Origin: a virus
Length of the DNA stretch: 64,000 nucleotides
Virus record (IMG/VR): IMGVR_UViG_3300028008_001363
Coordinates: 1 to 64,000 of that record
Direction: 5' to 3' (one strand)
In this document: piece by piece, positions 3,863 to 64,000 of the stretch
How the letters are laid out: each line of letters opens with the position of its first letter
Position numbering within the stretch: the stretch's first letter is position 1
Made by a program: the position numbers and the translations under genes
Notes under the pieces: generated by a model
The model's database searches: none
Told to the model about the DNA's origin: nothing
What the model saw: the letters and a program-made list of their open reading frames with translations, nothing else

Positions 3863-3892
3863 CTTAAAAAACCCTAGAAAACCGCTAAAAAC

Positions 3893-3921
3893 TTGACAAG
3901 ATTTGAGTTTAGTGTTATACT
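3893..3921 (+). promoter_or_regulatory. Sigma70-like promoter for the DUF262/HNH gene
   Basis: TTGACA (3893-3898), 17-bp spacer, TATACT (3916-3921) with an extended TGT before the -10. The predicted start is about 30 bases ahead of the gene at 3959. Confidence 0.85.
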
Positions 3922-3958
3922 TATTTTATAAGTTAATTAATTTAGGAGTTATTCCAGT

Positions 3959-5290
3959 ATGAAATCGTTAGTATACAAGACAGAAACGCAATCAGTTTGT
4001 GACTTTCTTGGTAGAGATAACATAGATGCGGATCCACCGCACCAACGCCCTCAAATACAAGATAATAATAAACGTAAGGGCATCATTGAAGCGATGGTAT
4101 CTGGAATAGATATTGGCGAGGTTAAGTTAAACCAAACTTCAGAGGACCCAGAAGAATTAGAAGTAATTGACGGGTCAAATAGATTACGTTCTATTAGGCA
4201 GTTTAGTGATAATAAGTTTTCTGTCTATGAAAAGACCTTTTCAGAGTTATCAAGTGAAGAACAAGATATATTTCTAAATTATCCTCTTCGATATATAATT
4301 TATGACAATTTATCACCACGAGACAAAGCATATCAGTTCCAAGCAACGAACAAAACAACTCAAGTAAACCACCAAGAAAAATTGAATTCATATGGTGTTG
4401 ATTTGTTAGCATCTTTGGTACGAGAATGTGTGCGTACAATTCCAGGAACAGATACAGTTCCAGAAGCATTGTTTCAATCTAGTATTAACAGAAAAGGTGA
4501 CAAGTTGAATTTCAGATTTTTTCAGTTTGATAATAATCAATTGAAAATTGAAGATGATGTGGCTCGTATTGCCTATCTTTGTAATTCAGATGAAGGTCTA
4601 ATTGGACATGAAGATAAAAAGATGGAAAAATTCTATGATACTCATGGTCTTAATGAAAAAGAAATTAAATCACTTCAAAAGAAAATGAAAAAGGTATTTA
4701 CGTTTGTTATGAAAAACGCAAACGCACGAATAGAAGGACCATGGGGATTAGGATTAAGTCGTTTAGAATTTAGAGCCTTGTATCGTTTATATTTTCATCT
4801 GAAAGATACCTACGGTGATTTTCACATTGAAGACTATGCAGAGTTCTTTACAGCCTTTAAACAAGGACACGATGCTTTCGCTGGTAGTATACCAACACGA
4901 AAAGAAATAGTAATTGATAAAAATGGTGTAGAAAAACTTGAATCTCAAGTATATACCAAAGCCTTAGGAAGCCACGAAAAATCTTGTGAGGTTGCAGTCA
5001 CATACTTACTAGAAGAGTTTGATGTAGAGCAATATTTGACTAATTTGGATAACAAAAGAGTATTCTCACGTGATGAACAAGAAACTCAACTTCAACGTCA
5101 GGACTTCAAATGTTGGGTTGATGGTTTACCATTAGCAATGAATGAAGCAGAAGGTGGACACATCGTTTCGCACATCAAAGGTGGTAAAACTGATGCTGAG
5201 AACTTTCGTATGATGCGAAGAATTCACAATCGAAAGATGGGTAAGCAGAATGCTAGGGAATACAAAGAAAAGTTCCTAGAAGGTGCATAA
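3959..5290 (+). CDS. DUF262/ParB-like protein with C-terminal HNH nuclease domain
   Basis: 443 aa. The N-terminal 85 residues contain a QRP element and VIDGSNRLRSIRQF, the signature of ParB/DUF262 (GmrS-type) nucleotide-binding domains. The C-terminal 60 residues form an HNH-like motif: KCWVDGLPL, GGHIVSH, then GGKTDAENFR and HNRKMG. The usual zinc-binding CxxC knuckles are reduced to one Cys. The same two-domain order occurs in type IV restriction enzymes of the GmrSD kind and in assorted phage proteins. Here it stands alone behind its own strong early promoter. A role in attacking host DNA or in excluding other phages is inferred, not shown. Homing is less likely because no interrupted gene is adjacent. 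Confidence 0.65.
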   Translation: MKSLVYKTETQSVCDFLGRDNIDADPPHQRPQIQDNNKRKGIIEAMVSGIDIGEVKLNQTSEDPEELEVIDGSNRLRSIRQFSDNKFSVYEKTFSELSSEEQDIFLNYPLRYIIYDNLSPRDKAYQFQATNKTTQVNHQEKLNSYGVDLLASLVRECVRTIPGTDTVPEALFQSSINRKGDKLNFRFFQFDNNQLKIEDDVARIAYLCNSDEGLIGHEDKKMEKFYDTHGLNEKEIKSLQKKMKKVFTFVMKNANARIEGPWGLGLSRLEFRALYRLYFHLKDTYGDFHIEDYAEFFTAFKQGHDAFAGSIPTRKEIVIDKNGVEKLESQVYTKALGSHEKSCEVAVTYLLEEFDVEQYLTNLDNKRVFSRDEQETQLQRQDFKCWVDGLPLAMNEAEGGHIVSHIKGGKTDAENFRMMRRIHNRKMGKQNAREYKEKFLEGA

Positions 5291-5293
5291 AAC

Positions 5294-5321
5294 TTGACAA
5301 TTCTGTCAGGTGTGTTATAAT
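5294..5321 (+). promoter_or_regulatory. Sigma70-like promoter
   Basis: TTGACA (5294-5299), 16-bp spacer, TATAAT (5316-5321) preceded by TGT. It lies immediately after the HNH stop codon and drives the gene at 5353 and probably the ligase. Confidence 0.85.
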
Positions 5322-5352
5322 AATTACATAATTAACAAAAAGGAATAGAACC

Positions 5353-7266: not shown

Positions 7267-7278
7267 GGGAGTATTCAG

Positions 7279-7716: not shown

Positions 7717-8334
7717 ATGAACTTTAAAGATATATTATGGATGCCAATCGACCTTCCTGTCTTTGACATGAAAGATGAATTAGTGAATGACTTTAGCGTA
7801 GACTTTGTTGCAGACGCTAAAGATTATGATGTTCGTGGTCAACTATTTTTAGAACACTCTAATAATTATTCAATATCTAAAGTGAAAGAGGGTTTAACAA
7901 ACTCTCAAAATCACTTGATAGATTATTGCAAAACAAATTTACCATTTACTGACTTAGTTAACATCAAAATTCATCATATCAAAACTACAGGAATGAAGTT
8001 ACATATAGATTTTGGTGACCCAGAAAAGAACTTAGAACTATTCAAACACACAAATGAGCATGAGCCTTGTGGTTTTAGAATGATTGTAAAGGGAACTAAA
8101 TCCGGCGATATGGTAGTTAGCACTAATGATAAAATCATTGTTCCTACAATGCCAGATGAAACAGATTGGTATGCTCTTAATTACACCGAAGGTTTACACG
8201 GTTCAAATCCAGCATCAACTGATATAGATGATAGATATGTTCTATTCTGTATGGGATGGATAGATAAAGATAAACACAAAGAACTTATAAATCGCAGTAT
8301 TGACAAGTATAGCGATTTTATCGTAAAAAATTAA
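7717..8334 (+). CDS. 2OG-Fe(II) oxygenase-like protein (beta-hydroxylase-like)
   Basis: 205 aa. KLHIDFGDPEKN gives the HxD part of the iron-binding triad, GFRMIVKGTKSGDMVV resembles the central double-stranded beta-helix strands, and YTEGLHGS supplies a distal His. This spacing fits the aspartyl/asparaginyl beta-hydroxylase type of 2-oxoglutarate dioxygenases, common in T4-like marine phages. The arginine that binds 2-oxoglutarate is not certain. The substrate is unknown. Confidence 0.45.
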   Translation: MNFKDILWMPIDLPVFDMKDELVNDFSVDFVADAKDYDVRGQLFLEHSNNYSISKVKEGLTNSQNHLIDYCKTNLPFTDLVNIKIHHIKTTGMKLHIDFGDPEKNLELFKHTNEHEPCGFRMIVKGTKSGDMVVSTNDKIIVPTMPDETDWYALNYTEGLHGSNPASTDIDDRYVLFCMGWIDKDKHKELINRSIDKYSDFIVKN

Positions 8335-8370
8335 AGATTTTACCTAATATTAGCATCATATTTTAACATC

Positions 8371-8508
8371 CTCATAAATATTTTTTGAGAACTTATGAGT
8401 TTAAAAAATTAATGTAGCAACCTTCTCATTACGAGGTGCCAATGTACAGGGCAATAGCAAAGAGAGGACTACTAATCAGTTATACGAGGGTCGCTACCTC
8501 GAACTGTA
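8371..8508 (+). ncRNA. Structured intergenic element
   Basis: The 258-base gap between 8334 and 8593 has no gene. It contains a hairpin CTCATAA/TTATGAG (8371-8399). A compact GC-richer block follows with CGAGG/CCTCG (8485-8501), TACAG/CTGTA (8445-8508) and an alternative pairing GTAGC/GCTAC (8414-8497). The competing stems suggest a switchable RNA. No known riboswitch class recognised. Confidence 0.35.
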
Positions 8509-8527
8509 AAATTAATTAATAAAAGAC

Positions 8528-8556
8528 TTGTATATGTCTGTTAGATGGTGTATAAT
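8528..8556 (+). promoter_or_regulatory. Sigma70-like promoter for mazG
   Basis: TTGTAT (8528-8533), 17-bp spacer, TATAAT (8551-8556). The -35 is weaker than elsewhere in the window. Confidence 0.65.
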
Positions 8557-8592
8557 AAAAAGATATTAATACAACATTAGAAGGATATATCC

Positions 8593-9006
8593 ATGTCGAA
8601 CAAAGTAAATCTCCAGTCATATCAAAATTTCGTCCAAGCAGTGACTAGTGACGAAGCAAATGAACTCACCCCTTTTATTAATCGTTTAAACGAACTATCT
8701 GAAACTACTGGATGTAATATTCCATTATTCTTAAATAGTGCGATTGGCATGGCAGCCGAAGGTGGGGAATTTGCAGAAATCCCAAAGAAAGTATGTTTTC
8801 AAGGTAAGCCACTAGATGAAGACACTATCTTTCATGCGAAAAGGGAACTCGGTGATATTATTTGGTATTGGATGAATGCATGTCGTTCACTGAACTTAGA
8901 CCCTAATGAAGTAATCGCAGAAAATGTAAATAAATTAGAATCACGTTATCCTGGTGGTTCATTTGATGTTCATTATAGTGAAAATAGACAAGACGGCGAT
9001 TTATAA
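8593..9006 (+). CDS. mazG: MazG-like nucleotide pyrophosphohydrolase
   Basis: 137 aa. The all-alpha NTP-PPase signature is visible as AAEGGEFAEIPKK and, about 30 residues later, ELGDIIWYWMNA, giving the E-x-x-E...E-x-x-D metal ligands. NVNKLESRYPGG closes the domain. MazG proteins hydrolyse (d)NTPs. Phage versions have been proposed to tune host nucleotide pools or ppGpp. It has its own early-type promoter. A MESH1-like ppGpp hydrolase is encoded at 63.2 kb. Confidence 0.8.
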   Translation: MSNKVNLQSYQNFVQAVTSDEANELTPFINRLNELSETTGCNIPLFLNSAIGMAAEGGEFAEIPKKVCFQGKPLDEDTIFHAKRELGDIIWYWMNACRSLNLDPNEVIAENVNKLESRYPGGSFDVHYSENRQDGDL

Positions 9007-9009
9007 ATA
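9002..9009 (+). promoter_or_regulatory. T4-type late promoter box (TATAAATA)
   Basis: Exact TATAAATA ending five bases before the ATG at 9015, overlapping the mazG stop. If used, the mRNA would begin at or near the start codon. The sequence ATAAATACTATTATG is identical to that at 40800. Confidence 0.5.
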
Positions 9010-9014
9010 CTATT

Positions 9015-9275
9015 ATGTTTGAAATAGACGATTACGATAAATTATCAGAAGAAGAACTGGATGAGAAAATCCAAGATGTTCTAAAGAAAGTGGACATGGC
9101 GTATTCAATGGGTAATAACGAAGTTATGAACCAACTACTTTTTCATTTAGATAATTTAAAAATGGCATTAGGTGACAAACTTGAAAAGCAAAGATATGAT
9201 GCAATTTCAGGTAAGTTGCCAGAGCAATTCAGTATAACTGATGATGAATTAGACGAGGACCCAGAAAAGAAATAA
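9015..9275 (+). CDS. Hypothetical acidic helical protein, 86 aa
   Basis: A helical, acidic protein (KLSEEELDEKIQDVLKKVDMAY...). No Shine-Dalgarno: the late box TATAAATA sits five bases before the ATG. The stop overlaps the next start (TAATGG). Function unknown. Its late-promoter setting hints at a virion or assembly role. Confidence 0.65.
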   Translation: MFEIDDYDKLSEEELDEKIQDVLKKVDMAYSMGNNEVMNQLLFHLDNLKMALGDKLEKQRYDAISGKLPEQFSITDDELDEDPEKK

Positions 9276-9940
9276 TGGAAATAGCATATAGTACAGAAAG
9301 TTATTCTACTTACAAAGCAGAATTTAGTGCAACCTTAGTTCAAACAACTGCAATGTTAATGAGTGACATATTTGAAGTAGAGATTACATTTGGATGGTTA
9401 TCACCCGATTATGCAAAAAGTAATGCGGCATTCTTAAAGATAAAATTCTTTATTGAACAGTTGATGCATCAATCTATATTGACCCATCCAACAGCAAAAA
9501 TTGATATGGCAAATATAGAGAACAAAATTGTTATGTTGCCTCATCCACCATCAAATGATGTAATTGCTATGGTACTACATTCAAAACTTACTGCAATAGT
9601 CAGTGAGTATATAGAAATCATAACTGTGAAAGTTGGTAGTAAAGCAATCGACCCAGTTATTTCTTACACTCATGGCGATGATGAATATCCTGCTTTACCA
9701 CCACTAAGTCAATGGGTAGCATCGGATGACTACTATTATGATGAACCATGGTGGCATAGAAACTCAACTGATACACAAGATTACGAAGAATATAAGAAAT
9801 CAGACTTGACATCCGCACCGGATAGTGATACAATATTAGATGACCTAGAAAAAGCAATCCTAGGAGAACTAAAATTAGAAGAAGAAGGTGGAGAAGTAGT
9901 TGAAATCAGTGACTGGAAACCAGAAATCATTGAAGATTAA
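9275..9940 (+). CDS. Hypothetical protein, 221 aa
   Basis: Overlaps the preceding stop by one base. The N-terminal 140 residues look globular. The last 80 are acidic and tyrosine/tryptophan-rich (ASDDYYYDEPWWHR) and probably extended. No family recognised. Confidence 0.65.
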   Translation: MEIAYSTESYSTYKAEFSATLVQTTAMLMSDIFEVEITFGWLSPDYAKSNAAFLKIKFFIEQLMHQSILTHPTAKIDMANIENKIVMLPHPPSNDVIAMVLHSKLTAIVSEYIEIITVKVGSKAIDPVISYTHGDDEYPALPPLSQWVASDDYYYDEPWWHRNSTDTQDYEEYKKSDLTSAPDSDTILDDLEKAILGELKLEEEGGEVVEISDWKPEIIED

Positions 9941-10457
9941 TCGTAATATCGACCAATTTGGTAGAGTGATTTATGACGTATATGATTTGTACGACATGAT
10001 TATGTCTGGTGCAGATATGTCTGCAATCAAAGAAGTCAGTTGGAATAGCGATTTTGACAAATACAACGAAGCCATCAAAAAGAACTACGTTGAAACCAAT
10101 AAATTAGAGAAACTTGAGACTATACAACTTGACGTGGAAGAGTTCGATAGAATTAACCAAGAGAATTGGTTCATTCCTGATGAATATAAGACTTTAGATA
10201 TAAAATCTTATGTTTTAGAGAGAACTCCCGCTCATGCAATTGATAGGGTTAACGAAGAACTAAATCTGTATGATAAATACAATATAATAGACGTACTTAA
10301 AGTATGCGTTTATATTATAGATACCCTAAGAAAAAATAATATCGTATGGGGTGTTGGTCGAGGCAGTAGTGTAGCAAGTTATGTGCTATATTTAATTGGT
10401 GTACATAAGGTCGATAGCATTAAATACGAGTTGGACATAAATGAGTTTTTGAGATAA
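9900..10457 (+). CDS. DnaE/PolC palm-like small protein
   Basis: 185 aa, probable TTG start at 9900 preceded by GGAG, overlapping the previous gene by 41 nt. The C-terminal part (WGVGRGSSVASYVLYLIGVHKVDSIKYEL) closely matches the GxGRGSA..G..V.Y.LGI..VDP..Y.L block that carries catalytic residues in bacterial DNA polymerase III alpha subunits. The rest of a C-family polymerase is missing, since the protein is one-sixth of normal size. It cannot be a complete polymerase and may be a regulatory or nucleotide-binding derivative. Confidence 0.55.
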   Translation: MKSVTGNQKSLKINRNIDQFGRVIYDVYDLYDMIMSGADMSAIKEVSWNSDFDKYNEAIKKNYVETNKLEKLETIQLDVEEFDRINQENWFIPDEYKTLDIKSYVLERTPAHAIDRVNEELNLYDKYNIIDVLKVCVYIIDTLRKNNIVWGVGRGSSVASYVLYLIGVHKVDSIKYELDINEFLR

Positions 10458-10458
10458 T

Positions 10459-10653
10459 ATGAATAAGAATATAATCAAATTTCCAAATAGTAAAAGAAAA
10501 CTGAGTGATGAAGAAGAAAAAATCATTCGGGTTTCTGCTAATTTGATTCACAATACTTATGTCAATAACAACCCATATATAAAGCCAAAAGAAATGACCG
10601 AAGAAACACTAAAAGAACTTATTCAAAATATTTTTGAATTAAACGAGGAGTAA
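10459..10653 (+). CDS. Hypothetical protein, 64 aa
   Basis: ATG one base after the preceding stop. A small mixed-charge helical protein. No recognised family. Confidence 0.6.
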   Translation: MNKNIIKFPNSKRKLSDEEEKIIRVSANLIHNTYVNNNPYIKPKEMTEETLKELIQNIFELNEE

Positions 10654-10655
10654 AA

Positions 10656-11117
10656 ATGGCAAACCGTAGAAGTATGCGTGGTGCATCAATTGATTTAGCA
10701 AAATTGATGGCTCGCCAAGAAAAAAATATTACTGTCGGCAATACTAAAACAAATGCCCGTGGTGACCAGTTGGGTAAAGGTGGTAGAATTGTAAAAACTG
10801 CTGATGAACTTGCAAGAGAACACTATAACAGAAACGACCCGAAAGCGGTTGTCCAAGGCGGCATTAAAATAGACGATGATACTCCTGAAATTCAGAACAC
10901 TAGAGTACAGGAAGTAGAAAAGCCAGTAGAAGATGATTGGGTAGAACCAACCCCACCACCGGCAGAACCGAAACCTAAAGCAAAAGCAGTTGAAGAAGAC
11001 GACCCTTGGGTTGAAGACAAAGATGGAAATTTTGTAAGAAAAAGTGAGCAGGAGCAACATGAACGAGTTTCAAAACCTACAAGTAAGAAGCAACAACCAG
11101 CAAAGAAAAACAAATAA
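10656..11117 (+). CDS. Disordered Pro/Lys/Glu-rich protein, 153 aa
   Basis: AACGAGGAG precedes the ATG. The first 50 residues are basic; the rest is low-complexity, with two tryptophan-bearing acidic repeats (DDWVEP and DPWVEDKDGN) and a lysine-rich tail. Likely intrinsically disordered and possibly DNA- or protein-binding. It sits directly upstream of the gp31-like co-chaperonin. Confidence 0.6.
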   Translation: MANRRSMRGASIDLAKLMARQEKNITVGNTKTNARGDQLGKGGRIVKTADELAREHYNRNDPKAVVQGGIKIDDDTPEIQNTRVQEVEKPVEDDWVEPTPPPAEPKPKAKAVEEDDPWVEDKDGNFVRKSEQEQHERVSKPTSKKQQPAKKNK

Positions 11118-11118
11118 T

Positions 11119-11466
11119 ATGAGTGAGACAATTAGACCTCTACACGATACTATTATCTTAACGAACCTAGAAGTAGGTGAAAGAAAGAGTGCAGGTGGTA
11201 TCATAATTGCTGACGATGATGGCAAAGAACATGGCATCAGAGCCAGATGGGCACAAGTCTATGCAATTGGACCAGAACAGAACGATGTAAAAGTCGGTGA
11301 ATGGGTACTGATGCAACATGGCAGATGGACACGTGGTCAAGACTTTGCACTCAAAGGTCAAAAGCCTTTTCGTTTTTGGAAAGCAGACCCTAAAGGTATT
11401 CTTGGTATCAGCACAGTTGGTAAACCAAAGAATATTGAAGTCGAAACTATCGTTGATACCGACTAG
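11119..11466 (+). CDS. 31: GroES-like co-chaperonin (gp31-like)
   Basis: 115 aa from the ATG at 11119. An upstream in-frame extension to 11044 would run back into the previous gene and lacks conservation. The protein opens IRPLHDTIIL, with a GERKSAGGIII mobile loop and the VYAIGPEQ...VKVGEWVLMQ barrel strands, as in GroES and T4 gp31. In T4, gp31 replaces GroES so that GroEL can fold the major capsid protein. The T4-like context supports that role. Confidence 0.85.
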   Translation: MSETIRPLHDTIILTNLEVGERKSAGGIIIADDDGKEHGIRARWAQVYAIGPEQNDVKVGEWVLMQHGRWTRGQDFALKGQKPFRFWKADPKGILGISTVGKPKNIEVETIVDTD

Positions 11467-11483
11467 AAAAAACACCTAAAAAC

Positions 11484-11511
11484 TTGACAAAACCTCGAAT
11501 CAGTGTATACT
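11484..11511 (+). promoter_or_regulatory. Sigma70-like promoter, IR subclass
   Basis: TTGACA (11484-11489), 16-bp spacer containing CCTCGAATC, TATACT (11506-11511). The -10 is the left arm of an inverted repeat TATACT-ATA-AGTATA. Confidence 0.9.
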
Positions 11512-11520
11512 ATAAGTATA
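11506..11520 (+). repeat. Inverted repeat over the -10/+1 (putative operator, copy 1)
   Basis: TATACT-ATA-AGTATA, followed by GTTAATCA. The same element recurs at 55614 and 63731. A repressor or phage regulator site is a reasonable inference. Confidence 0.5.
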
Positions 11521-11543
11521 GTTAATCAATGAGAGGTTATAAT

Positions 11544-11783
11544 ATGTTTAGAATCCCTAGTTTTTACCAAGACAATCCAACTTTTGAAGATGCATGGAAA
11601 ACAATCGCTTTTTGCGGTGACAATGATGCATTAGCAGGTATGGAATTTATGAACCGTAAATGGGAAGAGCATTGTTCATCAGAAGATGATGATGATACAT
11701 TTTTTGAGAATTGGTCATACGAAGCAAATGCTTATAACGTAGTGTTTGCAAACATGAATAAACTTTTTGGAAAGGCGGCTTAA
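11544..11783 (+). CDS. Hypothetical acidic protein, 79 aa
   Basis: ATG at 11544 is chosen because GAGAGG precedes it; the in-frame ATG at 11529 overlaps that ribosome binding site. Acidic with a DDDDTFFENW stretch. It is the first gene behind an inverted-repeat-class promoter. No family recognised. Confidence 0.65.
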   Translation: MFRIPSFYQDNPTFEDAWKTIAFCGDNDALAGMEFMNRKWEEHCSSEDDDDTFFENWSYEANAYNVVFANMNKLFGKAA

Positions 11784-11784
11784 G

Positions 11785-11982
11785 ATGATACGCATTTTTA
11801 ATAGTGCTTACTATGAAGATACTGGCGCAGAACGTCTAATACCTTTAGAAGAGGCTGACATCATAGAACAGAGAATAGATGCAAAGGGTCGTCCTTTTAT
11901 ATTCTTTGAGCATAAAGATTATCCATTAGGTGGTCTTCGTGCCTGGTATGACGGAACTTATTGGCAATGTGATATGGATTAA
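11785..11982 (+). CDS. Hypothetical protein, 65 aa
   Basis: ATG at 11785, one base after the preceding stop, with GGAAAGGCGG upstream. Contains GGLRAWYDGTYWQCDMD at the C-terminus. No family recognised. The next promoter starts right after its stop. Confidence 0.6.
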   Translation: MIRIFNSAYYEDTGAERLIPLEEADIIEQRIDAKGRPFIFFEHKDYPLGGLRAWYDGTYWQCDMD

Positions 11983-11986
11983 AAAC

Positions 11987-12014
11987 TTGACAACCACGCC
12001 AAATGTGTTATATT
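11987..12014 (+). promoter_or_regulatory. Sigma70-like promoter
   Basis: TTGACA (11987-11992), 16-bp spacer, TATATT (12009-12014) with TGT extension; drives the gene at 12045. Confidence 0.85.
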
Positions 12015-12044
12015 AATTAAGTAATCAGAGAGAAAGAGAATCAC

Positions 12045-12353
12045 ATGTCAAAATTAAGCAATGAAACAAGAATGGTCTTCGATTGTGAAACAACAAAAGC
12101 AATGGGTATCGCAGATGGCGAATACGAATTGCGTACTAACATGGCGGATTATCGTTCAGAAAGTGATGAATTTATTACGTTGCAATGGGCAACAGATAAC
12201 AAAGTTAACGTAATCCAAGGAAATTGGGATGTTGATTCTGTTCTTAAAGCCTCAGAACATCTTATGGATGCTTGTGGATATCATGGCGTATATGTTGAAC
12301 AACTAGATTATAACATAGAAAATAACTTTATTGAGTTAACTGTGGGTTCGTAA
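12045..12353 (+). CDS. Hypothetical protein, 102 aa
   Basis: Preceded by GAGAGAAAGAGAATCAC and a strong promoter; probably its own transcription unit because another promoter follows at 12358. The sequence looks globular, ending in NIENNFIELTVGS. No family recognised. Confidence 0.65.
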   Translation: MSKLSNETRMVFDCETTKAMGIADGEYELRTNMADYRSESDEFITLQWATDNKVNVIQGNWDVDSVLKASEHLMDACGYHGVYVEQLDYNIENNFIELTVGS

Positions 12354-12357
12354 AAAC

Positions 12358-12385
12358 TTGACAAAACCTAGAATCATGCTATAAT
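12358..12385 (+). promoter_or_regulatory. Sigma70-like promoter
   Basis: TTGACA (12358-12363), 16-bp spacer with CCTAGAATC, TATAAT (12380-12385); drives the HAD gene and the genes up to the tRNAs. Confidence 0.85.
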
Positions 12386-12419
12386 GTATACATAAATGAG
12401 AAAAAATAGAGAGGTTAAA

Positions 12420-13001
12420 TTGAAAGACGAAAAGATTATATTGACAGATTGTGACGGAGTTCTTCTCGCTTGGGAAGATGCATTCCACGATTGGATGAAG
12501 ACTAAGGGCTTCACTAAAAAAGCAGAAGCGACTTATGATATTTCTACTACATTCGGTATTCCTAAGACTTTAGGTAAGAAGTTAGTTAAAGAATTTAATG
12601 AAAGTGCTTGGATGGGCTTCCTTCCTGCGTACAAAGATGCAAGAAGTGGTGTTGCCAAACTAGTTGAACATGGCTGGAAATTCATTGTGATTACTAGTTT
12701 AAGTTTAGATGTGAAAGCACAGATGCTACGAATTAGCAACTTGAAAAACATATTCGGTAAGAATGTCTTTATCGATGTTATCTGTTTAGACACAGGTGCT
12801 GACAAAGATGAAGAACTTGTAAAGTTTAAAGATTCTGGGTTGTACTGGATTGAAGATAAGCCAGAGAATGCAGAAGCAGGACTAAAATACGGGTTGAAGC
12901 CTATTGTTATTGAACATGAACATAACAAAGACCACAAAGCAGAGGGTATTGATTATGCTTATGACTGGGAAGAAATCTACAACATTATAGAAAGAGGTTA
13001 A
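12420..13001 (+). CDS. HAD-family phosphatase (5'-nucleotidase-like)
   Basis: A TTG start at 12420 preceded by GAGAGG at the usual distance is preferred over the ATG at 12396, which would lie at the predicted transcript start. Motif I is LTDCDGVLL (nucleophile and acid/base Asp pair), motif II FIVITSLS and motif III IEDKPENAEAG. The 193-aa size and cap fit the 5'(3')-deoxyribonucleotidase-like HAD group in phages, which dephosphorylate nucleoside monophosphates. Substrate not proven. Confidence 0.7.
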   Translation: MKDEKIILTDCDGVLLAWEDAFHDWMKTKGFTKKAEATYDISTTFGIPKTLGKKLVKEFNESAWMGFLPAYKDARSGVAKLVEHGWKFIVITSLSLDVKAQMLRISNLKNIFGKNVFIDVICLDTGADKDEELVKFKDSGLYWIEDKPENAEAGLKYGLKPIVIEHEHNKDHKAEGIDYAYDWEEIYNIIERG

Positions 13002-13003
13002 AA

Positions 13004-13168
13004 ATGAGTGATTTATATTTTGTGCAAGTAATTGCAGAAGACGGTGCTGTCTCACGTTGGGAAGCATTGGACAAAACTCAAGCAGACTTTGTTTACAATC
13101 AACAAGTTATCATTTATGGTGCTGAAAATTGCACTATCGGAAAATCTATGGACGCTTACACGCTATAG
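13004..13168 (+). CDS. Hypothetical protein, 54 aa
   Basis: A 54-codon frame with AGAGGTTAAAA before the ATG, two bases after the HAD stop and ending just before tRNA-Leu. It reads MSDLYFVQVIAEDGAVSRWE and ends SMDAYTL. It looks like a small beta-alpha fold; function unknown. Confidence 0.6.
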   Translation: MSDLYFVQVIAEDGAVSRWEALDKTQADFVYNQQVIIYGAENCTIGKSMDAYTL

Positions 13169-13178
13169 AAATCATATT

Positions 13179-13264
13179 GCTCTCGTGGTGGAATTGGTAT
13201 ACACAACAGACTTAAAATCTGTCGCCCTTAGGGCTTGGCGGTTCGAGTCCGCCCGAGAGTACCA
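13179..13264 (+). tRNA. tRNA-Leu (anticodon UAA)
   Basis: 7-bp acceptor GCTCTCG/CGAGAGT, anticodon stem ACAGA/TCTGT with loop CTTAAAA (anticodon TAA), a long class II variable arm (GCCCTTAGGGC), T-loop TTCGAGT, discriminator A and encoded CCA. It reads TTA, a frequent leucine codon here. Confidence 0.95.
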
Positions 13265-13273
13265 TCATTAGTT

Positions 13274-13348
13274 TCGCCTGTAGTTCAACGGTAGAACCTG
13301 CCGCTCATAACGGTTATGTTGTCAGTTCGAATCTGGCCGGGCGAACCA
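13274..13348 (+). tRNA. tRNA with CAU anticodon (Met, possibly Ile2)
   Basis: Acceptor TCGCCTG/CGGGCGA, anticodon loop CTCATAA (CAT), T-arm GTCAG-TTCGAAT-CTGGC, discriminator A and encoded CCA. The T1-A72 pair and the lack of a G-C-rich anticodon stem argue against an initiator. Elongator Met or lysidine-modified Ile(AUA) cannot be told apart by eye. Confidence 0.9.
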
Positions 13349-13367
13349 AAATTAAAAGGAGTATAGT

Positions 13368-13532
13368 ATGAATGATTTAATCAGAGATATCGAAATCCTA
13401 GAAAGTGCAATTATTGCCTTTACTGAAGGTGCAAGTGATGAAAAACGGATGTCGTTAAATTCACTTGAGGGTTTAATTGCTGAAAAGAAAAGTATTATCA
13501 AAAGTTTTGAAGATACTTATAACGAAGAATAA
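13368..13532 (+). CDS. Hypothetical helical protein between tRNAs, 54 aa
   Basis: AAGGAG upstream of an ATG at 13368 opens a 54-codon frame starting MNDLIRDIEILESAI and ending FEDTYNEE. Its stop codon abuts tRNA-Ser, whose first base is 13533. Probably a short helical hairpin; function unknown. Confidence 0.65.
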   Translation: MNDLIRDIEILESAIIAFTEGASDEKRMSLNSLEGLIAEKKSIIKSFEDTYNEE

Positions 13533-13622
13533 GGAAGATTGGCTGAGTGGTCGAAAGCACCGGTTTACTAAACCGACGAAGAGGCAACTCTTCCTAGGGT
13601 TCGAATCCCTAATCTTCCGCCA
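13533..13622 (+). tRNA. tRNA-Ser with unusual ACU anticodon
   Basis: Acceptor GGAAGAT/ATCTTCC, class II variable arm GAAGAG-GCAA-CTCTTC, T-arm AGGG-TTCGAAT-CCCT, discriminator G and encoded CCA. The anticodon loop is TTACTAA, giving ACT. Bacterial tRNAs for AGT/AGC normally carry GCT, so A34 is remarkable. The base pair 27-43 is a C-A mismatch. Confidence 0.85.
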
Positions 13623-13624
13623 AG

Positions 13625-13848
13625 GACCCGTTGGGTGGCGCCCAACTAGTATGCCGTTGGTGAGGCATATGAAGATGAAACTGTATCGCTACGGTAAATA
13701 AAATCACCCGATGCAAGTATGCCGGCAAGTGTTTGTCGTTAGTGTGAGTGAGGTGGAGCGTGTTGCTGAAATATTGCAACGTCAGTCACAAGGAAGAATT
13801 CCCTTGATTGACTTGAAAGCCTTGAAACCTACCACACATACACTCTAA
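13625..13848 (+). ncRNA. Large unassigned structured RNA within the tRNA cluster
   Basis: About 230 bases between tRNA-Ser and tRNA-Arg hold no convincing gene but several stems: TTGGG/CCCAA (13631-13645), TATGCC/GGCATA (13650-13669) and GTTGC/GCAAC in the 13760-13780 area. A CAAGG/CCTTG hairpin lies near 13789-13805. A long-range imperfect stem joins 13742-13756 with 13828-13845 and closes the second half as one domain. It lies in a tRNA transcript and could be a stable phage RNA. No tmRNA or RNase P signature seen. Confidence 0.5.
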
Positions 13849-13853
13849 TTTTA

Positions 13854-13930
13854 CTGCTCGTGGCTCAACTGGATAGAGCAACGGCCTTCTAAGCCGTAGG
13901 TTGCAGGTTCAAGTCCTGCCGAGCAGGCCA
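13854..13930 (+). tRNA. tRNA-Arg (anticodon UCU)
   Basis: Acceptor CTGCTCG/CGAGCAG, anticodon stem ACGGC/GCCGT with loop CTTCTAA (TCT), T-loop TTCAAGT, discriminator G and encoded CCA. It reads AGA/AGG, codons used heavily in this phage. Confidence 0.95.
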
Positions 13931-13933
13931 ATA

Positions 13934-14010
13934 CGGAGTATAGGCTAGTCTGGTAAGTCGCTACGTTTGGGACGTAGAAATCGTAGGTTCAAATCCTACT
14001 ACTCCGACCA
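13934..14010 (+). tRNA. tRNA-Pro (anticodon UGG)
   Basis: Acceptor CGGAGTA/TACTCCG, anticodon stem CTACG/CGTAG with loop TTTGGGA (TGG), T-loop TTCAAAT, discriminator A and encoded CCA. It lies three bases after tRNA-Arg. Confidence 0.95.
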
Positions 14011-14014
14011 GTAA

Positions 14015-14043
14015 AAAGGGGAGCATGTTATTTGCTCCCCTTT
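14015..14043. terminator. Bidirectional terminator between tRNAs and phoH
   Basis: An 11-bp perfect stem, AAAGGGGAGCA/TGCTCCCCTTT, with a 7-base loop between convergent transcripts. Short A/T runs flank both sides, so it can end the tRNA transcript on + and phoH on -. Confidence 0.85.
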
Positions 14044-14053
14044 GTCATCCCGT

Positions 14054-14800
14054 TTATTCGTCTTCGCCGTAAATTTCTAATATTTCTATCACTGCTGGAT
14101 GCCTTTCTACATCTTGCATATCAAATTGTGAGATTGAAATGTGTGATAGTCTTTGTTCATCTTTTTCGAAGTGGTCAACTAATTGAATGAAGTCAGAAAG
14201 TCCGTTTTCTGAAAATCCGCGGTCATGTTGTTTTAAATCTCCCGTGACTATCATTTTTGTGTTGTTGCCTATTCTCGTTAATAACATCTTCATTTGCGAT
14301 TTCGTTGCATTTTGCATTTCATCTGCAATAATCCATGAATCTTCAAACGTTCTGCCTCTCATGTAGGCTAAAGGTGCTATTTCTATGATATTCTCTAATA
14401 ACATGTTTTCGATTTGAACTACCGTAAAATGTTTTTCGAATATATCAAATATTGGTCTTGTCCATGGCGCCATCTTTTCATTCAAGTCGCCTGGCAAAAA
14501 ACCGTGTTGCTCATCAACCGACACTGCCGGTCTTGTTATTACTATTTTGGAGACCTCCCGTTCCATATATGCTTTAATACCCATTTGTGTACACAACAGA
14601 GTTTTACCGGTACCAGCAGGACCAATCGCAAATACGATATTTGTACTTGGGTCGGCTAACTGATAAAGGTAATCTTCCTGTGCAACATTTCTAGGTAAAA
14701 TTGTAGGTGTTCTTTTACTATAAAGTGGTACGATATCATTGCTGTTATTGTATGCTTTATGATTGTTATTCTGTCTCTCAACACGTTTTTTTCGTGCCAT
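14054..14800 (-). CDS. phoH: PhoH-like ATPase
   Basis: 248 aa, the only supported minus-strand gene. Walker A GPAGTGKT at residues 60-67, a Walker B-like WIIADEMQN, VTRPAV after the first P-loop strand, and MIVTGDLKQ as sensor. This is the PhoH-domain pattern, widespread in marine phages. The biochemical role is unsettled: ATPase and possibly RNA helicase or ribonuclease-linked. An AGGAGGA ribosome binding site precedes the start. No clear promoter found, though the AT-rich stretch at 14870-14905 could hold one. Confidence 0.9.
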   Translation of the reverse strand: MARKKRVERQNNNHKAYNNSNDIVPLYSKRTPTILPRNVAQEDYLYQLADPSTNIVFAIGPAGTGKTLLCTQMGIKAYMEREVSKIVITRPAVSVDEQHGFLPGDLNEKMAPWTRPIFDIFEKHFTVVQIENMLLENIIEIAPLAYMRGRTFEDSWIIADEMQNATKSQMKMLLTRIGNNTKMIVTGDLKQHDRGFSENGLSDFIQLVDHFEKDEQRLSHISISQFDMQDVERHPAVIEILEIYGEDE

Positions 14801-14927
14801 ATTGTTCCTCCTGATGAGGGATTTTCAGAAAGTAAACATCTCTGCTTACAAAGGTATTTAGCCAAGTAGTAATAGAATATACATAATATATAATTAAACG
14901 AGATAAAAATATTTCCGTTCTGGAAAT

Positions 14928-14935
14928 GATAAATA
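14928..14935 (+). promoter_or_regulatory. T4-type late promoter box (GATAAATA)
   Basis: GATAAATAC about 28 bases before the ATG at 14963, in the divergent intergenic region with phoH. Confidence 0.65.
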
Positions 14936-14962
14936 CATTTATAATTGTGGAGAAATACAAAT

Positions 14963-15469
14963 ATGGACGATATTAAGCAAAATGACATCATTGATAATCT
15001 AAGAAATGTTGATGGTAATGGCACTTTATTAGATATTCTATTAGAATTTGAACATATGCTCGAAGAACAGGGTATGTACGGATATGAGAATTGGAAACAA
15101 GGTGAAGTTGCTCAAGGTCCTAAATTGTCCAGATACTGGCTAAATGTTACTTTAATGTATCCATACCTAAAAATGCCTAATCCAAAAGCGAAAGCAAGAT
15201 TAGAAAACATTGGGTGTGATGTTAAATTTAAGAAAGCAACATTAAAAACTCCAAGAACAGTTAAAAAACAAGAAGATTTGGACTCAAACAAAAAACCAAA
15301 GTTAGATTCAGAAGACGTTTGGTTAGTTGATATTTGGATGCCACGTAAATTTGTTGATGAAGCATTAACAGGTAAAGATGTAGTTGATGGCGACATCAAT
15401 CAATCAGAATTATCTAATGCTTATGAAACTGGGTTAGATGATGAAACTAAACTTGGGCAGGATACATAA
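14963..15469 (+). CDS. Hypothetical protein, 168 aa, under late promoter
   Basis: The ATG at 14963 has GGAG ten bases upstream; the earlier TTG at 14945 overlaps that site. An acidic N-terminus is followed by an aromatic segment (GPKLSRYWLNVTLMYP) and a lysine-rich region. No family recognised. The late-type promoter suggests a structural or assembly role. Confidence 0.65.
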   Translation: MDDIKQNDIIDNLRNVDGNGTLLDILLEFEHMLEEQGMYGYENWKQGEVAQGPKLSRYWLNVTLMYPYLKMPNPKAKARLENIGCDVKFKKATLKTPRTVKKQEDLDSNKKPKLDSEDVWLVDIWMPRKFVDEALTGKDVVDGDINQSELSNAYETGLDDETKLGQDT

Positions 15470-16082: not shown

Positions 16083-16097
16083 AAAAGAAAGAAAGTT

Positions 16098-49773: not shown

Positions 49774-50241
49774 ATGGCAAAGACACTTAATCCAAATTCA
49801 TGGTTTGGCACGCCAGAAGAAAAAGAACGAGCGATTGCTAGGCGCATCACCGATGAAAAAGAACAAGCAATTGCACTAGAAGAAATCAATTTCAAGTATG
49901 GTCATACAGACCAACATACTTACGACAAGAACATGGCTACACATAAAGGTGAACAGTATGTTCGAGTTATTGGTATGGAATTAGACAAAGATAAACCAGG
50001 ACAAGGTTTCTTTGAGTTAGATTTCAACGACCAATTCGTAGAATATCTTGCACAGAATGGCTATGAAGGTTTAGAACAAGAACAAATCGTTGATAATTGG
50101 TTCAATGATTTATGTAAGAACATTGTACTAAATGATTTAGAAGACGAAGAAGGCATTAGAAGAAGCGTAATGTCTGATAGCAAAGATGGACTAATCATTA
50201 GTAAAGTCAAAACTGACAAGGATACTTCAGAATATTATTAA
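49774..50241 (+). CDS. Hypothetical acidic protein, 155 aa
   Basis: ATG at 49774 with AAGGAG upstream, preferred over 49756. A helical acidic protein (TPEEKERAIARRITDEKEQAIALEEI). No family recognised. Ends just before a promoter. Confidence 0.65.
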   Translation: MAKTLNPNSWFGTPEEKERAIARRITDEKEQAIALEEINFKYGHTDQHTYDKNMATHKGEQYVRVIGMELDKDKPGQGFFELDFNDQFVEYLAQNGYEGLEQEQIVDNWFNDLCKNIVLNDLEDEEGIRRSVMSDSKDGLIISKVKTDKDTSEYY

Positions 50242-50243
50242 AC

Positions 50244-50272
50244 TTGACCATTTTAACAAGTTGTGTTATAAT
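50244..50272 (+). promoter_or_regulatory. Sigma70-like promoter of the FEN/HAD/SGNH operon
   Basis: TTGACC (50244-50249), 17-bp spacer, TATAAT (50267-50272) with TGT extension. The seven genes that follow are coupled up to 54835. Confidence 0.8.
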
Positions 50273-50304
50273 AGTAGTAACTTTAATACAGTAGTGAGGA
50301 ATAC

Positions 50305-55197: not shown

Positions 55198-55587
55198 GTG
55201 AATAAGAGAGAGTTAATAAACTATATTAACAAACACACAACTGGAAAAACAGCAGGCAGAAAAGAAATTACTATTAGTGATATCTTTATCAGCGCCCGTT
55301 CTGATGCCGGCTTTAGAGTGTCACCACTAGGCAGAGATATTCTTTCTAAACATTTCACCAAATATAACATAGAACTAAAGTTGAATTCAACTACCTTACA
55401 TAAGCATAGACAAAATGCAATAGGAACAGGCAACCAAATACTTACACTTGATAAGTATCTTAAAACACCATATTATCTAAACAGGTCTAAACTAGTTCTA
55501 TTTGAAGAAGTTGCCGCGGCTGAACTCTCAATGATTGATGGTGACATAGAACTATGGCTACGAAATAAAACTTTTTATTCTGATTAA
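55198..55587 (+). CDS. Hypothetical basic protein, 129 aa
   Basis: GTG start two bases after the previous stop. Basic N-terminal part with ISARSDAGFRVSPLGRDILSKHF, possibly DNA-binding. No family recognised. Confidence 0.6.
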   Translation: MNKRELINYINKHTTGKTAGRKEITISDIFISARSDAGFRVSPLGRDILSKHFTKYNIELKLNSTTLHKHRQNAIGTGNQILTLDKYLKTPYYLNRSKLVLFEEVAAAELSMIDGDIELWLRNKTFYSD

Positions 55588-55591
55588 GAAC

Positions 55592-55619
55592 TTGACAAAT
55601 CCTCGAATCGATGTATACT
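55592..55619 (+). promoter_or_regulatory. Sigma70-like promoter, IR subclass
   Basis: TTGACA (55592-55597), 16-bp spacer with CCTCGAATC, TATACT (55614-55619) within the inverted repeat. Confidence 0.9.
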
Positions 55620-55628
55620 ATAAGTATA
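55614..55628 (+). repeat. Inverted repeat over the -10/+1 (putative operator, copy 2)
   Basis: TATACT-ATA-AGTATA followed by GTTAATCA, as at 11506; the two sites are identical over 25 bases. Confidence 0.5.
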
Positions 55629-55652
55629 GTTAATCATTAAGAGGACAATAAC

Positions 55653-55907
55653 ATGACTAATCCGTACAAATTCAAAGTCTTTGTTAAACAATTCAACGAA
55701 TCAGCAAATCTACAAGAAAATCAAATGCCAGATGGAAACTCTATCAACTGGAATTTTGTTGATGCAGACATGTGTTTGCGTGGATGGGATGTTGCCTTCG
55801 GTCGTGATGAATGGGATTCTATTTTCTGTAAAATGGCAGATGATTTCATCCTTAATGATGCGGCCTCGAAATTAGAGGTTCTTAAAAAAGAATATTTGGG
55901 TCAATAA
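55653..55907 (+). CDS. Hypothetical protein, 84 aa
   Basis: AAGAGGACAATAAC before the ATG. Mixed-charge protein with DMCLRGWDVAFGRDEWDSIFCKM. Similar in size, acidity and promoter to the gene at 11544. Own transcription unit, as the MoxR promoter follows at once. Confidence 0.65.
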   Translation: MTNPYKFKVFVKQFNESANLQENQMPDGNSINWNFVDADMCLRGWDVAFGRDEWDSIFCKMADDFILNDAASKLEVLKKEYLGQ

Positions 55908-55916
55908 GTGAAAAAC

Positions 55917-55944
55917 TTGACAAATCCCCGAATCGTGTTACAAT
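55917..55944 (+). promoter_or_regulatory. Sigma70-like promoter of moxR
   Basis: TTGACA (55917-55922), 16-bp spacer with CCCCGAATC, TACAAT (55939-55944). Spacer motif shared with the IR subclass. Confidence 0.85.
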
Positions 55945-55973
55945 AATAGTATATTAAATAGAGAGGTTAAGTT

Positions 55974-57098
55974 ATGAAAGTATCAACAAACGATTTAGAT
56001 GTGAGAGTAGTTCGTCCTAGTGATGTACGTGCCGAGATTAATTACGCTATGAACCGAAAGCGTCCGGTATTCATATGGGGACCTCCTGGTGTTGGTAAAT
56101 CAGAAATTGTAGATAGCATTACCCAAGAACGTTCTGGGTTTATGATTGACCTTCGTCTCGCTCTTATGGAGCCCACAGATTTACGAGGTATTCCATACTT
56201 CAATGAGAAGAATGGTACTATGGAATGGGCCACACCTTCAGATTTGCCTAGCCAAGAACTTGCTGACCAATATGAAAGTGTTGTTCTTTTCTTAGATGAA
56301 ATGAACCAAGCACCACAATCAGTTCAAGCCGCGGCTTATCAGTTAATTCTAAACCGTCGTTTAGGTTCTTATGTGCTACCAGATAACGTGTTAATCGTTG
56401 CGGCTGGTAACCGTGAAAGTGACCGAGGTGTTGCATATCGTATGCCTTCACCACTTGCTAACCGTTTTGTTCACCTTGAAATGGGTGTTGACTTCGAAGA
56501 TTGGCAGACTTGGGCATTAGAGAACAAAATCAGTGCCGATGTGGTTGGTTTCTTAACGTCTAACAAGATGGACTTATTCAACTTTGACCCACGTCAGGCG
56601 AGCCGTGCCTTTGCTACTCCTCGTTCTTGGACTTTTGTTTCTGAAATGTTACCACAAGAAGGTGAAGAAATTTCACAAAGTCGTTTACATGACTTGATTG
56701 CTGGTACAGTTGGTGATGGTGTTGCTACTAAGTTTATGGCTCACAGAGCCTTGTCAAGTAAGTTGCCTGTTCCTTCTGATATCTTAGATGGTACAGTTAC
56801 AACTCTTTCATCAGAAGCACGTGAGATTTCAGCGATGTTCTCGTTGACAACTTCACTATGTTACGAGTTGAAAGACTTTGTAGACCGTAACGGTAAAGAC
56901 AAAATGGATGAGTTATATAGCATGGCTAATAACTTCTTTAAGTTTATGATGGAAAACTTTGATACTGAAATGACAGTATTAGGTGGTCGTACTGCTCTTA
57001 AAGTTTACAAACTTCCATTAGAGCCTCGTAAAGTGCCTTGTATTGAAGATTTCTTCAAAAAGCATGGTAAACTTATCATCGAGGCCCATAACGCCTAA
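55974..57098 (+). CDS. MoxR-type AAA+ ATPase
   Basis: 374 aa. Walker A WGPPGVGKSE near residue 36, ALMEPTDLRGIP and Walker B VLFLDEMNQAP, then NRESDRGVAYRMPSPLANRF with sensor 1 and Arg finger. This is the MoxR/CbbQ/NorQ group, which act with VWA-domain partners as chaperones or metal-inserting remodellers. A likely partner begins at 63769 under the same promoter subclass. Followed by a structured RNA/terminator. Confidence 0.9.
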   Translation: MKVSTNDLDVRVVRPSDVRAEINYAMNRKRPVFIWGPPGVGKSEIVDSITQERSGFMIDLRLALMEPTDLRGIPYFNEKNGTMEWATPSDLPSQELADQYESVVLFLDEMNQAPQSVQAAAYQLILNRRLGSYVLPDNVLIVAAGNRESDRGVAYRMPSPLANRFVHLEMGVDFEDWQTWALENKISADVVGFLTSNKMDLFNFDPRQASRAFATPRSWTFVSEMLPQEGEEISQSRLHDLIAGTVGDGVATKFMAHRALSSKLPVPSDILDGTVTTLSSEAREISAMFSLTTSLCYELKDFVDRNGKDKMDELYSMANNFFKFMMENFDTEMTVLGGRTALKVYKLPLEPRKVPCIEDFFKKHGKLIIEAHNA

Positions 57099-60899: not shown

Positions 60900-62047
60900 C
60901 AGTATATATTAACGCAATTAGTGGTCTAACTCCTTTTGGTGACCTAGAAGACACATGGAAGGCAATAACAAATGATGAAGTTTGTTACGGTCCTCTTACT
61001 AAATTTTCACATGATAAGAGCATCAGGTCTAAGGTTTCAGGTGAGGTTAAGTTTAATGCTGAAAACCATCCTATCATAACTGAAAGAGAACAAGATAAAA
61101 TGCCATCGTATATGCAATGGGCATTATCATCAGCAGATAAATTATTACACAAACAAGATTTAGAAAAAGACAGAACTGGTGTTCTTGTATCAACTGCCCT
61201 TAGTATGTATAACGAACCTCTACGAGCAAGTGAAAATAAGAATGTCAACACTTATACATTCACCCCAAATCTTATATCAAACAATATCAATATTAAATAT
61301 GGTTTTACAGGACCAAGTACAATGTTGTCTAGTGCGTGTTCTACAGGACTGTACAGTATCATTATGGGTTGTATGATGATTGAAACAGGACAAGCCGATA
61401 ACATAATTGCTGGTGCATTTGATGATTCGATTTATAAGGATGCATATAAACAGTTCGGTAAACTAAGAGCATTGTCAACAAAGTACAATGAAACTCCTGA
61501 AATAGCAAGTCGTCCATGGGATAAAGATAGAGACGGACTAGTTCTCAGTGAGGGTGGTGCATTATTTTTATTATCAAAAACTAAGACAAAAGATACAATA
61601 GCAGAGATATCTGGATATGCAATGAATAACGATGCATTCCAGGCTGTTGCTCCGCATCCAGATGGGACTATGATAGAAAAATGTATGAAAGATGCACTGT
61701 TTTATCGCACACCAGACTTAATCAATGCACATGCAACATCTACCCCTAAGGGCGATTATATTGAGGTGGATGCAATCAATAGATTAGGACTAGAAGATGT
61801 ATGGGTAACAGCAAATAAGTCGCAAATTGGTCACTTAATGGGGGCTGCCGGTGCCATAGAGACTGCTTTAAGCGTACTTTCACTAGAAAATGACATTATT
61901 ACTCCATCTTTAAACATAAATGAACTAGAAGATGGTTATAATATAAAATATACACCAACTACCATATCACATAAAGTTAATTCAGTACTGTGTAATAGTT
62001 TTGGATTTGGTGGGACAAATGCATGTATTTTGTTATCAAAAACTTGA
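60896..62047 (+). CDS. Beta-ketoacyl-ACP synthase (FabF/KAS II-like)
   Basis: 383 aa. Complete catalytic set: C148 in SACSTG, H279 in HATST, K308 and H313 in KSQIGHLMGAAG, and NSFGFGGTNA at the C-terminus. These match the C-H-H triad of FabF and polyketide KS domains, which condense an acyl thioester with malonyl-ACP. No acyltransferase or reductase domain is fused. The stop codon lies inside the -35 of the next promoter. With the ligase, halogenase and ACP it suggests a phage-encoded acyl or polyketide product. Confidence 0.93.
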   Translation: MTVYINAISGLTPFGDLEDTWKAITNDEVCYGPLTKFSHDKSIRSKVSGEVKFNAENHPIITEREQDKMPSYMQWALSSADKLLHKQDLEKDRTGVLVSTALSMYNEPLRASENKNVNTYTFTPNLISNNINIKYGFTGPSTMLSSACSTGLYSIIMGCMMIETGQADNIIAGAFDDSIYKDAYKQFGKLRALSTKYNETPEIASRPWDKDRDGLVLSEGGALFLLSKTKTKDTIAEISGYAMNNDAFQAVAPHPDGTMIEKCMKDALFYRTPDLINAHATSTPKGDYIEVDAINRLGLEDVWVTANKSQIGHLMGAAGAIETALSVLSLENDIITPSLNINELEDGYNIKYTPTTISHKVNSVLCNSFGFGGTNACILLSKT

Positions 62048-62071
62048 CAAGATTGCAAAATGTGTTATACT
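62044..62071 (+). promoter_or_regulatory. Sigma70-like promoter
   Basis: TTGACA (62044-62049, containing the KAS stop), 16-bp spacer, TATACT (62066-62071) with TGT extension. Confidence 0.85.
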
Positions 62072-62102
62072 CTTTATATAAGTTAATAAAGAAGTAGATA
62101 TT

Positions 62103-62918: not shown

Positions 62919-62927
62919 AGCCAAAAC

Positions 62928-62955
62928 TTGACAAACCACAGAACCATGTTATATT
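62928..62955 (+). promoter_or_regulatory. Sigma70-like promoter
   Basis: TTGACA (62928-62933), 16-bp spacer, TATATT (62950-62955); drives 62990 and the MESH1-like gene. Confidence 0.85.
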
Positions 62956-62989
62956 ATATACATAATCAGAAATAAGAGAGGTCACTTCA

Positions 62990-63694: not shown

Positions 63695-63708
63695 GTATGC
63701 ATCAAAAC

Positions 63709-63736
63709 TTGACAAATACTCGTTTTGGTGTATACT
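63709..63736 (+). promoter_or_regulatory. Sigma70-like promoter, IR subclass
   Basis: TTGACA (63709-63714), 16-bp spacer, TATACT (63731-63736) within the inverted repeat. Confidence 0.9.
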
Positions 63737-63745
63737 ATAAGTATA
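63731..63745 (+). repeat. Inverted repeat over the -10/+1 (putative operator, copy 3)
   Basis: TATACT-ATA-AGTATA followed by GTTAA, third copy of the element seen at 11506 and 55614. Confidence 0.5.
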
Positions 63746-63768
63746 GTTAAAGATAAGAGGAATAAGAT

Positions 63769-64000
63769 ATGGGTCAACCACAAAAACAAGTAGCCACAGA
63801 AAGCGAATTAGATAGTGCATTAGATGATGTTCTAGCCGCTAATGGTATTGAAGTAGATGATACTCTACCAGAACCTGTAGTATTTGATTATACTGACGAA
63901 AAAGTCAAAGAAATGATTGTGAGTAGTCGTGTTCGCCTTCTTATTCGTCACCCATTTTTCGGTACACTTGCTACTCGATTGAAATTAGTCGAGGCAGAAT
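63769..64000 (+). CDS. DUF2201/VWA-type metallopeptidase-like protein, N-terminal part
   Basis: Open frame from an ATG at 63769 (AGAGGAATAAGAT upstream) that runs off the window. After an acidic 50-residue lead, SSRVRLLIRHPFFGTLATRL matches the start of the DUF2201 putative metallopeptidase domain, which usually precedes a VWA domain. Such proteins pair with MoxR ATPases; one is at 55974 under a related promoter. The rest of the gene is outside the window, so the VWA half is inferred. Confidence 0.65.
   Translation, partial: MGQPQKQVATESELDSALDDVLAANGIEVDDTLPEPVVFDYTDEKVKEMIVSSRVRLLIRHPFFGTLATRLKLVEAE

Follow-up and report, generated by a model that had tools for sequence, protein, structure and literature searches.

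Three promoters in the DNA analyzed here form a genuine sub-type of a phage promoter family, in which TG directly abuts a TATACT -10 element and is followed by RTAAGTATAG. The conservation beyond the -35 and -10 elements is real and extends through the whole phage clade. The reading that I favor, and hold to be reasonably probable, is that the family consists of host-type (sigma-70-like), probably early promoters, that the sub-type was inherited and probably copied as a block, and that the inverted repeat over its -10 element is mainly incidental.

Three promoters with an identical core

The window, which is the whole stretch analyzed, covers positions 1 to 64,000 of a virus record 99,856 bp long. 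The three promoters have TTGACA at 11484, 55592 and 63709, a 16-nt spacer each, and TATACT at 11506, 55614 and 63731, respectively. They and the genes that they drive are as follows.

11479..11528, + strand: sub-type promoter; AAAAC followed by TTGACA (11484-11489), GAATC 11497-11501, TG 11504-11505, TATACT 11506-11511, AGTATA 11515-11520, predicted +1 near 11518
11544..11783, + strand: 79-aa ORFan driven by promoter 11484; its lineage II orthologue (L230) keeps the promoter sub-type
55587..55639, + strand: sub-type promoter; AGAAC followed by TTGACA (55592-55597), GAATC 55605-55609, TATACT 55614-55619, AGTATA 55623-55628
55653..55907, + strand: 84-aa ORFan driven by promoter 55592
63704..63752, + strand: sub-type promoter; TTGACA 63709-63714, CGTTTT 63721-63726 (where the others have CGAATC), TATACT 63731-63736, AGTATA 63740-63745
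63770..64000, + strand: 5′ part of a DUF2201 metallopeptidase/VWA-like gene driven by promoter 63709; runs past the window

An earlier note on this DNA had claimed that the three promoters share TATACT-ATA-AGTATA within at least 20 identical bases. Indeed, the 22-mer TGTATACTATAAGTATAGTTAA can be read directly in all three, and promoters 11484 and 55592 agree for three more bases (TCA). The spacer word that it had seen in these two (CCTCGAATC), with close variants at 12358 (CCTAGAATC) and 55917 (CCCCGAATC), was correct in both strings and coordinates. The whole-record motif search that it had proposed as a check came out in its favor: the exact 15-mer TATACTATAAGTATA occurs three times on the + strand and never on the - strand of the 99,856 bp, the reversed control does not occur, and with a weight matrix built from relatives the three promoters score 41-47, while the maximum in 20 shuffled genomes was 13.0. 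When up to three mismatches were allowed, 13 matches were found in the window, against a mean of 7.5 and a largest value of 12 in 100 shuffles; three of the 13 are the three palindromes matching themselves.

A promoter family of a large-phage clade

In a first census of TTGACA sites, about a dozen lay before genes and had AAAAC upstream in common. The promoter set was then assembled from MoxR loci (MoxR relatives occur at 71 viral loci, the longest contig having 342 kb), further loci, and whole-record pattern searches of 17 relatives, 16 of which gave matches. The 287 sites represent 132 distinct promoters, and 125 have a downstream ATG, the seven others being dropped; the 125 are distinct sequences, orthologues included. 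Their consensus is AAAAC-TTGACA-N7-GAATC-RTGN-TATANT-N6-RTA, with a spacer of 16 nt in 106, 17 nt in 18 and 18 nt in one promoter between TTGACA and the TATAAT-like hexamer. Since the pattern search demanded AACTTGACA, the conservation of those letters, and of TTGACA, is by construction; that of the other letters is not. Lineages I and II were set by hand from MoxR identities, with L147 (86%) placed in lineage I and all other remaining sources in lineage II.

A matrix trained on 98 promoters, from which sequences identical to those of this record had been removed but near relatives kept, finds nine promoters in the record at 37-58 bits. Two further ones with 17-nt spacers (3893 and 50244) bring the total to 11, all on the + strand and directly before genes. 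Besides the sub-type promoters, they are as follows.

3888..3938, + strand: family promoter with a 17-nt spacer; TTGACA 3893, TATACT 3916-3921
5289..5338, + strand: family promoter; TTGACA 5294, TATAAT 5316-5321
11982..12030, + strand: family promoter; TTGACA 11987, TATATT 12009-12014, then AATTAAGTAATCA
12353..12400, + strand: family promoter; TTGACA 12358, GAATC, TATAAT 12380-12385, then GTATACATAAATGA
50239..50290, + strand: family promoter with a 17-nt spacer; TTGACC 50244, TATAAT 50267-50272; before a 5′-3′ exonuclease gene
55912..55960, + strand: family promoter of MoxR; GAATC, TGt, TACAAT 55939-55944, AGTATA 55948-55953; no inverted repeat
55974..57098, + strand: MoxR-type AAA+ ATPase
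62039..62088, + strand: family promoter; TTGACA 62044, TATACT 62066-62071, without AGTATA
62923..62970, + strand: family promoter; TTGACA 62928, TATATT 62950-62955, then ATATACATAATCA

Likewise, about 22 family promoters were found in a 342-kb relative, all directly before genes. Downstream of the promoters lies an A-rich leader that contains a ribosome site of the GAGAGG type, and they precede genes for a GmrSD-N-like protein, small ORFans, an HAD-like protein, the 5′-3′ exonuclease, MoxR, the DUF2201 metallopeptidase/VWA protein and others. In divergent phages, the MoxR upstream regions mostly have the same architecture in quite different sequence; those of L176-L178, L182, L187 and L188, for example, lack the family design.

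The DNA polymerase of the record is nearest to those of Agrobacterium phage Atu_ph07 (48%) and Sinorhizobium phage Phosso, which are both very large phages. The clade carrying the promoter family probably consists of marine large phages, distant kin of Atu_ph07. No GAATC-RTG family was found among the TTGACA/TATANT sites of Phosso, Atu_ph07 and PA5oct, the DNA of window positions 11300-12500 matched none of the phage records, and no description of a GAATC-spacer promoter family was found in the literature searched. It was also considered whether the promoter had been borrowed from a host, but none emerged from a scan of the genomes of 84,980 species for CTTGACA-N5-8-GAATCRTGNTATANT, made with no control pattern. 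Of the 86 stretches that matched, 80 were listed, most of them from gut Clostridia and Lentisphaerae, in whose genomes the pattern is recurrent (L385-L464), with one from Flavobacteriaceae and one from Parvularculaceae among them. As a separate observation, GATC and AGCT occur at only two and zero sites in the record (1-99856), against about 322 and 319 expected, and at none of about 60 each in the five tested loci of lineage I; in lineage II relatives, the depletion is only partial. The pattern resembles extreme restriction-site avoidance.

Genes behind the promoters

The earlier note had placed the MoxR and DUF2201 genes in the same promoter sub-type. Both promoters are family members, but of the two only that of the DUF2201 gene (63709) carries the repeat. 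At the MoxR promoter (55917), the spacer word and AGTATA accompany a TACAAT -10 element, so that no inverted repeat is formed. Its suggestion that the two genes act together is sound as a pairing, given the MoxR-vWA pair with an N-terminal peptidase domain described for one jumbo phage group with a proposed role in virion assembly (PMC7824862). Between the two genes, positions 57244-62047 encode an AMP-binding ligase, a tryptophan-halogenase-like protein, an unknown protein and a beta-ketoacyl synthase, an array resembling a small phage-borne cluster of secondary-metabolite genes. Immediately before the DUF2201 gene, positions 63164-63694 encode an HD_4-domain protein, possibly MESH1/SpoT-like.

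Conserved letters in the spacer and at the start

The spacer between the -35 and -10 elements is usually regarded as nearly sequence-neutral. In the clade promoters, however, GAATC lies 4 nt before the -10 element in 50 of 125, namely 41 with 16-nt and nine with 17-nt spacers. Since the distance is the same at both spacer lengths, GAATC is anchored to the -10 element. A TGn extended -10 element is found in 102/125, and RTA at the predicted start (+1 to +3) in 112/125. Among 18 promoters of different genes with a 16-nt spacer in one relative (G001), GAATC is at its site in 12 and TGn in 17; the conserved letters carry 1.1-1.6 bits per position, versus 0.4-0.65 in the three columns before (columns 4-6). 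Thus, orthology cannot explain this conservation, because the letters are kept at different genes of one genome. Such strong spacer conservation is unusual if sigma alone reads the DNA. Most probably, the extra letters adjust how the host polymerase recognizes the promoter, opens it and initiates. Kept at a fixed distance from the -10 element before many unrelated genes, GAATC offers a clean case for testing what reads spacer DNA.

The sub-type is older than the lineage split

TATACT, three bases and AGTATA occur in 14 of the 125 promoters, several of which are mutually orthologous. TG abuts the -10 element in 11 of these 14 versus 1 of the 111 others, and promoters 11484, 55592 and 63709 all have this TG in place of TGn. 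Both lineages have the sub-type, which also stands before orthologous genes (11484 and L230); it is therefore older than their split. The shifted TG shows that the block forms a unit; a dedicated factor could account for this as well.

Is the inverted repeat a functional unit?

The block can be read as an inverted repeat, as in the earlier note, but the reading as a direct repeat, GTATACTATAA-GTATAGTTAA at 11484, is just as good. As a unit, the inverted repeat was unsupported in the lineage of the window. In lineage I, AGTATA follows TATACT in 10/16 promoters and other hexamers in 25/49 (p = 0.57), and the arms are lost singly in orthologues. Those of promoter 55592 have TATAAT-ACT-AGTATA or TATAAT-ACT-TGTATA, and the DUF2201 orthologue of L147 has TATTAT-ATA-AGTATAGTTAAAG, with ATAAGTATAGTTAAAG kept and TATTAT as the -10 element. 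One arm has changed and the other is kept, which argues against the repeat as a unit. Moreover, perfect arms with another hexamer were found in two promoters only (1/37 with TATAAT and 1/26 with TATATT). In lineage II, every AGTATA stands with TATACT (4/7 vs 0/53, p = 7e-5). Over all 125 promoters, the association has p = 0.002, and with similar promoters collapsed it is 7/15 vs 7/40 (p = 0.039). Permuting the right halves revealed no excess of palindromy at the fixed axis (p = 0.14 and 0.26), while free-axis palindromy was slightly above the permutations in both lineages (p = 0.019 and 0.025).

Viral contigs were scanned for the four arm combinations; 106 of at least 119 stretches were used, giving 76 sites after removal of near copies. 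Among the matches listed, ATA-centred sites numbered 4, 12, 2 and 32 (odds ratio 0.75, p = 1), with AGTATA beside TATAAT in 32/50 and beside TATACT in 4/50, so that no arm coupling is seen for this centre either. Among the matches listed for GTA-centred sites (14, 7, 2 and 3), the arms are coupled (odds ratio 16, p = 0.0085).

Could a dimeric regulator of the phage or the host bind TATACT-RTA-AGTATA over the -10 element and the start, and repress or time the sub-type promoters? It would read either the inverted repeat or the direct repeat GTATACTATAA/GTATAGTTAA, with its 11-bp period. The block moving as a unit with the shifted TG, the arm coupling in lineage II and at the GTA-centred viral sites, and a sub-type that predates the split of the lineages are all consistent with such a protein. 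I nevertheless consider it unlikely in either form, since coupling is missing from the window's own lineage and, among the matches listed, from ATA-centred sites across viruses, since orthologues of 55592 and 63709 lose one arm, and since perfect arms with another hexamer are so few. PHROG scans named no regulator among the proteins tested, which are part of the record's genes. A broader version, in which a virion-borne or early phage-carried factor reads GAATC and RTA and redirects the host polymerase, and promoters with TG-TATACT-RTA-AGTATA are a second class, timed separately and under a regulator of their own, seems similarly doubtful. If true, GAATC/RTA would join UP, -35 and -10 among the promoter elements of phages.

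The mirror symmetry is most likely incidental, arising where TATACT stands beside the AGTATA form of the start-site element. I read the block as inherited and copied together, probably with no requirement for symmetry, and an operator as the less likely alternative. Divergent transcription from a symmetric -10 element was rejected: the TATACT spacing would superimpose both starts, and no opposing gene was seen. In other viruses (L025, L027, L034, L055, L057, L083 and L086), TTGACA is followed by a palindromic spacer, AGTAAGacgtCTTACT, and then TATACTGTAAGTATA; these promoters are a better candidate for a palindromic operator than those of the window.

Probable copying of promoter-sized blocks

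Promoters 11484 and 55592 are the most alike of the 45 promoter pairs in the record (41/47 positions, mean 23.4), and in G001 none of 231 pairs is closer than that of the MoxR and DUF2201 promoters (45/47). In the other five genomes with both of the latter promoters, the pair is not at the top (ranks 12/45, 13/21, 8/10, 3/6 and 7/21). The likeness among the three promoters ends within about 10 nt of the -35 element and about 12 nt past the start, and in the record and G001 it drops to background just outside the promoter and leader. The sequences make promoter-sized copying between genes plausible; the sharp edges fit short copying, or conservation, of early promoters for the host polymerase. 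Duplication of whole genes was rejected, as the 79-aa and 84-aa products belong to separate homology groups. It was also weighed whether the similarity reflects recent copying alone, with the extra letters functionally unconstrained. The top-ranked pairs and sharp edges agree with this, but GAATC, TGn and RTA persist in the 18 otherwise diverged promoters of G001 and are kept in cross-lineage orthologues while neighbouring spacer columns drift, which makes it rather improbable. Of the alternatives in the earlier note, that the extra conservation implies a regulator or recent copying, the conservation itself holds and copying is plausible, while a regulator, though possible, is not needed.

Very improbably, the spacer GAATC is a GANTC adenine-methylation site through which the promoters respond to methylation (CcrM-like control): GAATC is found in 65/125 spacers and GATTC in 10/125, and as GANTC is scarce genome-wide (GAATC/GATTC 132 vs about 209 expected, GAGTC/GACTC 42 vs about 126) its retention there is more telling, but N is never G or C (0 GAGTC and 0 GACTC of 125) and GATTT, GTTTT and GGTTT stand in 10, 8 and 5 spacers, so that the whole word is held rather than GANTC, and the proteins tested yielded no GANTC methylase. 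The 180-aa product of 46505-47047 matches no Pfam model, though it does match phrog_799, a DNA methyltransferase PHROG, in the C-terminal part of the latter.

Probable mechanism and comparison with known systems

According to the favored reading, host-type (sigma-70-like) RNA polymerase would use the family promoters, probably early, and the GAATC and RTA letters would tune its recognition, opening and initiation. The sub-type would have been inherited as a promoter-sized block that was probably also copied from gene to gene, and the inverted repeat would arise mainly from TATACT standing beside the AGTATA start element. The consensus is a ready-made promoter finder for an uncultured large-phage group.

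T4 early promoters have near-perfect -35, TGn and -10 elements for the host RNA polymerase and additional consensus regions (PMC2988021). The present family has such elements and extra consensus as well. Its extras, in a distantly placed phage group, are GAATC between -21 and -17 and an RTA that coincides with the predicted start. The T4-type late promoter TATAAATA occurs at five sites in the record versus 23.6 expected from shuffles, and two lie before an ORF start. The mobile regulatory cassettes (PeSL) of T4-type phages are reportedly promoter-sized units that apparently spread between gene modules, which resembles the probable spread between genes here. The defining feature of a PeSL is a stem-loop terminator accompanying the promoter. 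No terminator-like stem-loop was found on the + strand near the five promoters within 1-20000, where the eight terminator-like sites are all on the - strand; the family thus differs in the absence of this terminator (1-20000). Sigma-70 TRTGn extended -10 promoters have R at -16 and TG at -15/-14, as does the family, whereas the sub-type has its TG one base nearer the -10 element and the family conserves GAAT further upstream. Overall, this is a well-conserved promoter family whose general type is already known and which can be compared with the early promoters of T4; it includes a lineage-specific spacer element and a genuine sub-type.
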